This document shows, in pieces, positions 3,570-13,716 of a stretch of DNA of 54,239 nt; the stretch's first letter is position 1; every line of letters starts with the position of its first letter. Under the pieces are notes generated by a model. The model did not search any database. It worked only from the letters and a program-made list of their open reading frames with translations, and was not told the DNA's origin. Both the position numbers and the translations under genes were made by a program. This stretch comes from Ignavibacteria bacterium (GTDB lineage: Bacteria; Bacteroidota; Ignavibacteria; Tepidaquicellales; OLB5): positions 1 through 54,239 of the forward strand of contig JACSRQ010000156.1 of assembly GCA_014879675.1 (NCBI GenBank). The letters are read 5' to 3'.

Positions 3570-3643
3570 GCACCTGTAGCTCAATTGGATAGAGCATCTG
3601 ACTACGGATCAGAAGGTTTGGGGTTCGACTCCCTACAGGTGTA
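3570..3643 (+). tRNA. tRNA-Arg (anticodon ACG)
   Basis: A complete 74-nt cloverleaf: acceptor GCACCTG/CAGGTGT (first pair G-U) with discriminator A at 3643; bases 8-9 TA; D-arm GCTC-AATTGGATA-GAGC; anticodon arm TCTGA-CTACGGA-TCAGA with anticodon ACG; variable loop AGGTT; T-arm TGGGG-TTCGACT-CCCTA with one G-U pair. The 3' CCA is not encoded. ACG is normally edited to ICG and reads the CGN arginine codons, so this is likely an essential tRNA. Confidence 0.95.
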
Positions 3644-11531: not shown

Positions 11532-11580
11532 TGAAATTAATTAAATATTGAAAGTAGTATTTTTTTGCTATTTTCGTAAT

Positions 11581-12342
11581 ATGAAAACAGTGAAAGTTGA
11601 ATTTTTGAATCATGATGGCTTGAAGCTATCAGGCTCAATCGATATGCCCGTACATCCCCATGAAGACGGCCCATTTGCCACTTTTGCACATTGTTTCACC
11701 TGTTCTAAAGAGCTTAAAGCTATACAAAATATAAGTTTACCGTTAACAAGGCGGGGGATTTCGGTACTTAGGTTCGATATGTCAGGAATCGGCGAGAGTG
11801 AAGGCAGCTTTCCGGAAACAAATTTTACCACACAGATTAGCGATTTCTTATCGGCTGCAGAGTTCTTAGAGAAGGAATACAAATCTCCTGCTTTGCTGAT
11901 GGGGCATTCATTGGGAGGATGTGTTGCGCTTTATGCCGCATCAAAGCTGCCGGGGACTAAGGCAATAGTTACAATTGCGTCACCGGAAGAGCCTGCAAAT
12001 CTTGCTGTAAAGCTGAAGCGTACAAAGCAACGTGCCATTAAGTATGGAGTAGCAGAAGCAGAGATTGGCGGTGTAAAGTTTAACTTTAAGCCGCAATTCT
12101 TTAGTGATATAGAAACATACAACTTAAAGGCTGCTCAGAAGTCAATTCACATTCCTTATTTAGCCATGCACTCAGTGGCTGACACATATTCGGATTTCGA
12201 AAATGCCGAAATCCTTTTTGAACATGCTAATCAGCCCAAAAGTCTCATTTCTTTGGATGATATTGATCACTTGATGCTGGATAAAGAAGATGCGGCTTAT
12301 GTGGGTGAGCTTATTGCTGTTTGGAGCAAAAAGTACATATAA
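11581..12342 (+). CDS. alpha/beta hydrolase, OsmC-associated subfamily without the OsmC domain
   Basis: Serine hydrolase of 253 residues. The nucleophile is Ser110 in GHSLGG; the oxyanion/lid motif AHCFTCSKE is near 36-44; the likely acid and His are in the DTYSDFENAE and DDIDHLM regions near the C-terminus. The AHCFTC motif is characteristic of hydrolases fused to, or paired with, OsmC peroxiredoxin-like domains, yet this protein ends after the hydrolase domain. I chose the ATG at 11581; an upstream TTG at 11548 adds eleven atypical residues (KVVFFCYFRN). A TATTTTCG element ends just upstream of the ATG, so the message may be almost leaderless. The substrate is unknown. Confidence 0.85.
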   Translation: MKTVKVEFLNHDGLKLSGSIDMPVHPHEDGPFATFAHCFTCSKELKAIQNISLPLTRRGISVLRFDMSGIGESEGSFPETNFTTQISDFLSAAEFLEKEYKSPALLMGHSLGGCVALYAASKLPGTKAIVTIASPEEPANLAVKLKRTKQRAIKYGVAEAEIGGVKFNFKPQFFSDIETYNLKAAQKSIHIPYLAMHSVADTYSDFENAEILFEHANQPKSLISLDDIDHLMLDKEDAAYVGELIAVWSKKYI

Positions 12343-12518
12343 AAAACCCGTCAATCAGAAGAATTGACGGGTTTAGCATGAAAAAAATCGGCTGACTGCA
12401 GGTTTCTAAAGGAGAAAACAATACAGGAGGAAATCTGCAAAAAGCAGAGATTTCACAGTGCTGAACACCAGGAGGCAGTTTAGGTGCTCAGCTATTTTGT
12501 TTCTTCCTGCAGCCTGCC
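12341..12518 (-). ncRNA. candidate trans-acting structured small RNA
   Basis: Read on the minus strand, a long-range stem closes the RNA: GGCAGGCTGCAGG (12518-12506) pairs with CCTGCAGTCAGCC (12402-12390), 11 of 13 pairs. It encloses two hairpins: GCTGAGCACC/GGTGTTCAGC (12492-12483/12469-12460) with a CTGCCTCCT loop, and GAAATC(TC)TGC/GCAGATTTC (12454-12444/12438-12430) with a T5 loop. CU-rich segments CCTCCT (twice) and TCTCCTTT are exposed. A T7 run follows the closing stem, and a second hairpin (12374-12344) ends in a T6 run. A near-consensus -7 element (GATATTTG, 12525-12518) overlaps the 5' end. The unpaired segment 12422-12406 is a perfect 17-nt complement of the SD/start region of the gene at 18562. 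No protein frame explains the region. Strand is inferred from the T-runs. Confidence 0.5.
12344..12374. terminator. terminator hairpin between hydrolase and sRNA
   Basis: Perfect 12-bp stem AAACCCGTCAAT (12344-12355) / ATTGACGGGTTT (12363-12374). The plus strand has only three T, but the minus strand has six, so it works best for a minus-strand transcript (the candidate sRNA) while also placed to end the hydrolase message. Confidence 0.75.
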
Positions 12519-12630
12519 AAATATCATAACACAACCTGACTTAAAAAAATTGCACTCACGTTATATTTTTTTCCCGCTTATCTCTTTTGTTTTGAATATC
12601 TAATCAAAATTCGGTATATTTATCAAAATT

Positions 12631-13716
12631 ATGCAGGAAAATGAGTTTTTTGTAGATAAGGATAAGTTTTCGGAAGCCGAAAAACAGCGCGCTTCCCATA
12701 GCTTATGGTATTATTCCTGGATAAGATTTAAAAGAAACAAGCTTGCAATGGCAGGATTGGTTACTATCACCCTTTTGATAATAATTGCTATTACTGCACC
12801 AATATTGGCGCCCTACGAACCAAATGATCAAACACTTGAATATGCGACCAAGCCGTCCGGATTCAAAGGTAATGTGCTTGTAAAAAAGGCGCTTGAAGGT
12901 ACTGATTTTATTCCAATTAAGGGCATCACAAATGTACGTTCCGATTCAGTTTTTTACAACGATTACAGCGGGAGTCCAAAGGTAATTTCAAAAGCCGATC
13001 TGGTTGAAGGCGGCGAATCCGATTGGCATAAGGAGCCGGAATACCTGCTTGGCACTGATAGGTATGGCAGGGATATTTTGAGCAGGCTCATTTACGGCAG
13101 CAGAATAAGCTTATCAGTGGGTGTGATATCAGAGAGCATTGCTATATTTATTGGTGTAATTCTCGGCGCGCTTGCAGGATATTTCCGCGGCAAAACCGAT
13201 GCGGTTATAATGTGGTTTATCAACGTTGTTTGGTCTTTTCCCTCTATACTATTCATCATTGCGCTTTCCGTTGTGCTGGGCAAAGGATTCTGGCAGTCGT
13301 TTGTGGCGATTGGCCTGACCGGCTGGGTTGAAATTGCGCGAATTGTGAGGGGGCAGTTCTTCTCGCTGCGCGAAACAGAGTATGTTGAAGCAACCAGGGC
13401 GCTTGGTTACAGGCCAACCAGAATAATCTTCCGCCACATTTTGCCAAATACCATTGGCCCGATCATAGTTACAGGTACTGCAGGACTCGCAACATCGATA
13501 ATTTTTGAAGCAAGCTTAAGCTTTCTCGGGCTTGGTGTACAGCCTCCAACAGCAAGCTGGGGGCAGATGGTATTTGACGGCTACAAATATATAGTGGCAG
13601 GCACAAATTACGGCTTGGCTTTATATCCCAGTATTGCGATTATGATAACAGTTTTCGCGGTAAATCTGATTGGCGACGGTTTGCGCGATGCATTTGATCC
13701 TAAAATGCGAAGATAA
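12631..13716 (+). CDS. ABC transporter permease, DppC/OppC type
   Basis: Inner-membrane subunit of a peptide/nickel-type ABC importer, 361 residues. The first membrane segment (AGLVTITLLIIIAITAPILAPY, near 41-62) and five more at 165-350 flank the family motif LGTDRYGRDILSRLIYGSR and the EAA loop EATRALGYRPTRIIFRHILPN. About 60 residues between the first segment and LGTDRYGRD (FKGNVLVKKALEGTDFIPIKG onward) are extra relative to 300-residue DppC proteins and would be extracytoplasmic. No binding protein, DppB or ATPase gene is adjacent, so the partners are encoded elsewhere. The substrate is not predictable. Confidence 0.9.
   Translation: MQENEFFVDKDKFSEAEKQRASHSLWYYSWIRFKRNKLAMAGLVTITLLIIIAITAPILAPYEPNDQTLEYATKPSGFKGNVLVKKALEGTDFIPIKGITNVRSDSVFYNDYSGSPKVISKADLVEGGESDWHKEPEYLLGTDRYGRDILSRLIYGSRISLSVGVISESIAIFIGVILGALAGYFRGKTDAVIMWFINVVWSFPSILFIIALSVVLGKGFWQSFVAIGLTGWVEIARIVRGQFFSLRETEYVEATRALGYRPTRIIFRHILPNTIGPIIVTGTAGLATSIIFEASLSFLGLGVQPPTASWGQMVFDGYKYIVAGTNYGLALYPSIAIMITVFAVNLIGDGLRDAFDPKMRR

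Follow-up and report, generated by a model that had tools for sequence, protein, structure and literature searches.

A conserved structured RNA in a family of Ignavibacteria that probably switches off two related lipoprotein genes

We describe a conserved RNA in a family of Ignavibacteria that is in all likelihood a free-standing, trans-acting sRNA, one that would base-pair independently of Hfq and block the translation of two envelope lipoproteins, here called T1 and T2. The core of the RNA is an invariant 29-nt block complementary to the ribosome-binding sites of both genes. Complementarity to specific mRNA start regions, by which trans-encoded base-pairing sRNAs are recognised, is conserved across the family; it speaks for the sRNA role that an earlier note on this DNA had inferred, and suggests that the RNA probably switches off these two related genes. 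The RNA lies in a contig of 54,239 nucleotides (the window, meaning the whole stretch analysed), to which all coordinates refer. G000 is the window's own genome; other genomes are numbered likewise.

Results

Structure and strand of the RNA

Folded from the minus strand, the RNA yields the multi-branch structure proposed earlier, with a closing stem, two enclosed hairpins, a T7 run and a terminator.

12341..12518, minus strand: sRNA gene (fold z = -7.1; orthologues in 15/15 family genomes; covariation)
12506..12518, minus strand: closing stem, 5' arm (helix 1: 97.6% of cells paired, both-side changes in 5/13 pairs)
12390..12402, minus strand: closing stem, 3' arm, followed by T7 at 12381-12387
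12460..12492, minus strand: hairpin 1 (helix 2: both-side changes in 6/10 pairs)
12430..12454, minus strand: hairpin 2, with a GAAATC/GATTTC stem (helix 3: 98.9% paired, both-side changes in 1/7 pairs)
12344..12374, minus strand: terminator hairpin, with T6 at 12341-12346 (helix 4: both-side changes in 6/13 pairs)

The minimum free energy was -65.2 kcal/mol (z = -7.1), a value equalled by none of 200 shuffles. The RNA runs from 12518 to 12341, about 178 nt; its 5' end would lie near 12518 and its 3' end falls within the T-run at 12341-12346. The closing stem comprises 13 positions with one mismatch, and the 13-base loop of hairpin 1 presents the motif CTGCCTCCT (12470-12478). The invariant block has its first five bases in the 3' arm of hairpin 2; in the consensus fold the rest of the block is unpaired, and the minimum-energy fold has an extra small 5-bp hairpin within it which the consensus fold lacks. 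In G013 and G014 the second terminator was not evident by eye, and the RNA seems to end at the T-run of the closing stem.

Compensatory changes in relatives, proposed earlier as a check on this fold, were abundant. Across 13 full-length sequences, 18 of the 43 base pairs were changed on both sides and 94.9% of 553 cells were paired in the consensus structure. No shuffle out of 500 reached any of five measures, and shifting the stem partners by 1-3 columns dropped pairing to 49% or less. The covarying elements are the closing stem, hairpin 1 and the terminator; hairpin 2 is nearly invariant and is therefore weakly tested by covariation.

The choice of the minus strand was likewise upheld. The stem cells hold 66 G-U against 6 A-C combinations, which favours a minus-strand RNA, and the plus-strand fold is the weaker (z = -4.4). 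The T-run is also better on the minus strand, as had been observed (T6 against T3), and a conserved promoter-like element (see below) is found there. A plus-strand RNA presenting GGA motifs, acting as a sponge for a CsrA-like protein or as a decoy for an sRNA or the 30S subunit, would display AAAGGAG and two copies of AGGAGG, and its fold does beat shuffles; however, the G-U excess, the stronger minus-strand fold, and the T6 tail and promoter-like element of the minus strand make it barely credible.

That no protein frame accounts for the structure was borne out, since no ORF is consistent across the 13 sequences. Of these, 6/13 have ATG-started plus-strand ORFs of at least 15 aa (20-43 aa) that end within the RNA, and 2/13 have such ORFs on the minus strand; in the window's own genome there are none on either strand.

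CCTCCT occurs twice on the minus strand of the RNA (12425-12430 and 12470-12475) and a third C-rich motif, TCTCCTTT, once, just as the earlier note had it. In the 54-kb window CCTCCT was seen six times against 14.7 expected by chance, and two of the six lie in the RNA. Among these three C-rich motifs, one sits in a hairpin loop of the consensus fold.

Promoter-like element and neighbouring genes

12526..12554, minus strand: promoter-like element TGCAATTTTTTT-N11-TGTTAT, ending 7 bases before the RNA 5' end
11548..12342, plus strand: convergent alpha/beta hydrolase gene (Pfam PF12146)
12631..13716, plus strand: divergent oligopeptide permease gene, OppC-like (Pfam PF00528 and PF12911)

The near -7 element first read at the 5' end was not sustained: the Bacteroidota consensus TAnnTTTG, as given in the accessible part of PMC9723704, was found at the RNA 5' end in 0/15 loci. 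Instead, the pattern TGMAATTWTTTT-N11-TGTTAY was present in 14/15 loci (L015 lacks it), 7 bases from the RNA 5' end in 13 loci and 8 bases in L009. In the seven genomes scanned, the sole zero-mismatch occurrence per genome is at this RNA; at two mismatches the pattern gave 116 matches against 59 for the control. The TGCAATTTTTTT-N11-TGTTAT element presents itself as a putative promoter from which the sRNA would be transcribed.

A homologue of the hydrolase adjoins the RNA in 12/15 loci, and in the other three the contig ends within ~700 bases on the hydrolase side. The OppC-like permease adjoins it in 14/15. The terminator is probably common to the sRNA and the convergent hydrolase gene. Promoter-like element and terminator are both conserved, and the T1 and T2 targets lie on other contigs. 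In many loci a TTGAAT-N17-TATATT sequence, noted by eye at ~12594-12620 (plus strand), points toward the OppC-like gene, divergent to the putative sRNA promoter.

Distribution of the RNA

The RNA was present in all 15 genomes of the family, with one copy found per genome. A blastn search of 59 genomes, including the window's own, gave long matches throughout the genus (13 genomes, G000-G012); in G013 and G014, which represent the family's remaining two genera, the matches were to the core. A covariance model built from the 15 sequences and run with strict filters on 294 genomes of the class gave matches in 16, comprising the 15 of the family and one rejected as false. The latter (G028, outside the family, 30 bits) has many broken pairs in the closing stem and hairpins and sits in sequence that is coding-like and repetitive by eye. 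A blastn match in the sister family (L016 in G038; 93% over 28 bases, E 7.6e-4) scored 16.8 bits with the model and was not counted because a wrong-strand match in the same search scored 20.2 bits. By blastn and covariance model, the RNA was not found in the listed sister-family genomes.

A pattern of 20 specified bases was also scanned over 84,980 species genomes. It returned 15 stretches, of which 13 scored at least 62 bits with the model, all from Ignavibacteria or Chlorobi MAGs (e.g. UBA2360 and OLB5). Rejected were a Parabacteroides stretch, which at 21.8 bits scored less than a wrong-strand match (23.4 bits), and a Methanosarcina stretch, which gave no model score.

The earlier note had allowed that the structure might prove to be a known plus-strand element; no Rfam family reaches its cut-off here, 6S included. 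Rfam 15 at curated cut-offs, searched over the whole window, gave nothing at the RNA and only tRNA elsewhere (a tRNA gene matched at 3570-3643), and the best hit of a relaxed local search was ncr1175 with 22.5 bits against a cut-off of 60. 6S RNA (RF00013) had no match in the window, and none in G000 even with E values up to 10, in a search that detected 6S in 8/14 known genomes. Chlorobi motifs having Rfam entries are named in the structured-RNA list of Weinberg 2010, in the part available (PMC2864571).

Complementarity to T1 and T2

12406..12434, minus strand: invariant 29-nt block ATTTCCTCCTGTATTGTTTTCTCCTTTAG, the pairing region (identical in 15/15 sequences)
12415..12435, minus strand: segment antisense to the T2 ribosome-binding site (by complementarity)
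12403..12421, minus strand: segment antisense to the T1 ribosome-binding site (by complementarity)

Directly before the start codons of orthologous genes sit stretches of 16-21 bases that complement the block; these sites were first met as short matches in the initial blastn search. The 3' half of the block complements the ribosome-binding site of T1 and the 5' half that of T2, with TTGTTTT shared between them. The C-rich motifs pointed out earlier as anti-Shine-Dalgarno segments are therefore present, but as parts of a specific double antisense block rather than as loose motifs.

The T1 product is an exported protein of ~180 aa (MLNNHKLKFLIALMVMFAVGYVCSS...) that contains a charged repeat as well as a C-terminal domain; it is lipoprotein-like, but a canonical lipobox was not apparent by eye. 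The T2 product (135 aa, ...FSGCGRIKQI...), a paralogous lipoprotein, has a lipobox by eye and a related domain (36-42% identity). Searches of Pfam and NCBIfam with T1, T2, a third paralogue (T3) and a secreted-protein family (T5, below) gave nothing above cut-off.

Pairing was scored as the run, the longest uninterrupted Watson-Crick stretch in the start region, using each genome's own sRNA. T1 runs were 12-19 nt in 12/12 family genomes where T1 was found, the run in the window's own genome being only 12 nt; in G003, G005 and G007 only T1 paralogues were found. T2 runs were 16-22 nt in 12/15 family genomes. In G006 and G009 the T2 run was 7 nt, and in G014 the sole T2-like gene seen, a more distant paralogue, gave 10 nt; in all three the block is still invariant. 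Runs were 7-14 nt for T3 and 6-8 nt for a fourth paralogue without a Shine-Dalgarno sequence. Upstream of T3 (L102, L103, L106, L108, L109, L112 and L113) the purine-rich AAAGGGGAAAA was seen by eye in tandem with AAGGAGA or AAAGGAGA. The invariance of the block leaves no room to observe compensatory changes between the RNA and its targets.

For comparison, 316 mechanical reading frames were taken from a 400-kb sample of G008, with one best-energy start each. The longest background run to the block was 11 nt, against 19 for T1 and 17 for T2 in the same genome, while the duplex energies were -26.0 for T1 and -29.0 for T2 against -25.1 for the best background frame. T1 energy barely beats the background, and it is run length rather than energy that separates T1. 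In the 15 genomes, the exact T2-type 15-mer ACAATACAGGAGGAA gave 27 matches (15 in the RNA, 11 at the T2 site and 1 other) and ten further copies at one mismatch; the reversed pattern gave none even at one mismatch. The exact T1-type 14-mer TCTAAAGGAGAAAA gave 31 matches (15 in the RNA, 9 at T1 and 7 others), compared with 1 for its reversed control. The window's own genome holds an extra exact copy of the T2 15-mer (L263, G000:C207:33123-33137) with no ORF start close behind, possibly a decoy or a chance occurrence.

The complementarity is absent from the sister family, in which the RNA was not found: all 18 T1 homologues examined had runs of 7 nt or less. This contrast represents one evolutionary split and is confounded by the Shine-Dalgarno sequence itself, as GGAG, GAGG or AGGA occurred in the last 20 bases before the start in 0/18 of these homologues (GGGG in 2/18). 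A strong T1 Shine-Dalgarno was seen in the 12 homologues of the window's family (L061-L072), against no GGAG, GAGG or AGGA in the 18 of the sister family (L073-L090). This hints that the use of Shine-Dalgarno sequences changed between the lineages.

The invariant block begins and ends close to the outer limits of the combined complementarities to T1 and T2, as selection on pairing predicts. This bears on whether the RNA instead serves mainly a protein partner, as 6S or another housekeeping RNA does, the target matches being secondary. A strong multi-branch fold, conservation throughout the family, fixed synteny and a block that stays invariant even where T2 pairing is lost would suit such an RNA; its most conserved part, however, is a largely unpaired block with these borders, and neither 6S in the window's own genome nor any other Rfam family here was matched, so that we regard a protein-partner role as very improbable.

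Exposure of the C-rich segments, also claimed earlier, holds fully for the loop and only in part for the block. The loop motif CTGCCTCCT had an unpaired probability of 0.99-1.00 in 13/13 sequences. In single-sequence folds, the two C-rich segments of the block had mean unpaired probabilities of 0.38-0.74 and 0.48-0.74, and TATTGTTTT between them 0.24-0.68; the block is thus predicted to be only partly open. Opening costs in the 13 sRNAs were 3.2-8.2 kcal/mol for the T1 segment and 4.6-7.5 kcal/mol for the T2 segment; such costs of 3-8 kcal/mol compare with duplexes of about -26 (T1) and -29 (T2).

Other candidate targets

Six of the seven further exact T1-type sites lie directly upstream of genes whose N-termini look signal-like under a crude hydrophobicity rule, which 89/316 background frames also satisfy, as do 19/40 of those with GGAG. 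These six sites precede genes for T5 secreted proteins (G002 and G013), an outer-membrane barrel-like protein by eye and a secreted protein (both G003), a lipoprotein (G004) and a membrane protein, cytochrome-like by eye (G007); the seventh site, in G008, has no ORF of at least 60 aa.

T5 runs were 19 nt in G013, 16 nt in G002, and 13 and 15 nt in G000. Among 24 T5 homologues scored (5 more gave no start), runs reached at least 13 nt in 3/16 and were 11 nt or less in 13/16 from the family, and exceeded 7 nt in 0/8 from the sister family. With only 3/16 family homologues at 13 nt or more, T5 was set aside as secondary. Individual species may have additional targets among their envelope or secreted proteins.

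For the hairpin loop, a search of the 15 genomes with CAGGAGGCAGTTTAG at two mismatches gave 113 matches, including 12 at the RNA, whereas the reversed control gave 67. CAGGAGGCA placed 2-14 bases upstream of ATG gave 107 matches against 10; 43 loci examined included several candidate genes, and several matches fall inside genes. No firm, specific conserved target of the loop motif emerged in the 15 genomes. Cytochrome oxidase subunit III was rejected, its site being in coding sequence and only partly conserved (12 nt in 7 of 13 family genomes, 10 in G008, 9 in G009 and 8 or less in four). In L244-L250 its ribosome-binding site sits, by eye, within the final codons of the gene before it, start and stop overlapping as ATGA.

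The loop result would be expected of a general anti-Shine-Dalgarno RNA, whose C-rich segments, three in number here, bind any strong site, T1 and T2 being merely strong ones. The minor matches upstream of several exported proteins fit this as well, as does the excess of CAGGAGGCA before ATG, which Shine-Dalgarno bias alone would raise. Yet complementarity at T1 and T2 extends far beyond the Shine-Dalgarno core, where the 316 background frames do not pass 11 nt, and in each genome the extended 14- and 15-mers scarcely occur elsewhere. General binding is accordingly an unlikely account, and dedicated pairing with T1 and T2 is the reading we prefer.

Discussion

The mechanism we propose for this dedicated sRNA is as follows. 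Covarying stems frame the invariant 29-nt block and the C-rich hairpin loop, and the block would act as a fused double antisense, pairing with the T1 and T2 ribosome-binding sites. The predicted pairing covers the Shine-Dalgarno and in T1 stops only a few bases short of the start codon, so that a block of translation initiation is the expected outcome, perhaps followed by mRNA decay. A promoter-like element and a terminator of its own appear to serve the locus; stress on the envelope or on export would be a fitting inducing signal.

The sRNA would presumably work without Hfq. Hfq (PF17209) was found in 0/15 family genomes, some of them incomplete, by a search that detected it in 5/14 known genomes. 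Pairing in the cell would then have to proceed without it, which long perfect pairing fits. More tentatively, and with the odds somewhat against it, the 29-nt core might have evolved into a pair of overlapping, almost perfect antisense sequences arranged head to tail and acting without Hfq; as T1 homologues in the sister family lack a Shine-Dalgarno, that of T1 and the sRNA would have arisen together as an envelope control.

Single sRNAs dedicated to a lipoprotein or to outer-membrane proteins are known from E. coli (MicL, RybB/MicA); they depend on Hfq and sigma-E and use short seeds. The RNA described here would likewise be dedicated to lipoproteins, whereas no Hfq was found.

From its sequence features, the RNA is best placed as a new family of a known kind, the anti-Shine-Dalgarno sRNAs, with an unusually long, target-specific double seed. 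In the accessible part of PMC10746234, the αr14 or 'cuckoo' sRNAs of Alphaproteobacteria (NfeR1) are Hfq-independent, expose several ultraconserved anti-Shine-Dalgarno segments on variable stems, and silence mRNAs, some of them for components of periplasmic transporters, by pairing where translation starts; the motif CCUCCUCCC is present in three identical, redundant copies in three hairpins, and an 8-nt interaction is predicted at ntrB. As far as that description goes, the RNA of the Ignavibacteria is similar in its anti-Shine-Dalgarno segments, variable stems and predicted pairing at translation starts. However, it does not have three hairpins each with an identical CCUCCUCCC; its segments are unlike one another and are joined in a single 29-nt block, which matches two genes over 12-22 nt.

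The LhrC sRNAs of Listeria, in the section of PMC4132741 at hand, are induced by envelope stress and are multicopy, with three redundant CU-rich sites that block translation of a surface-protein mRNA, Hfq not being required. To that extent C-rich sites, surface or envelope-protein targets, a translation block and independence of Hfq (both predicted here) are in common, in contrast to the one copy per genome found here. Rfp18 of Flavobacterium is, in the accessible pages of PMC9723704, a conserved structured sRNA predicted to pair with secreted-protein mRNAs; its third stem-loop is predicted to pair with metalloprotease mRNAs, two of which fall on deletion of Rfp18. Both are conserved structured sRNAs from Bacteroidetes with predicted targets among mRNAs for secreted or exported proteins, whereas those pages describe no long conserved antisense for Rfp18.

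No paper on sRNA regulation in Ignavibacteria was found among the open-licence papers searched and, as far as these go, this would be the first predicted sRNA regulon in the class. As exact target sites are named, the prediction is directly testable. It bears on how envelope proteins may be controlled in bacteria in which Hfq was not found and which are kin to groups that avoid Shine-Dalgarno sequences. Finally, because the T1 and T2 lipoproteins match no Pfam or NCBIfam family above cut-off, the sRNA may offer a clue to their role.
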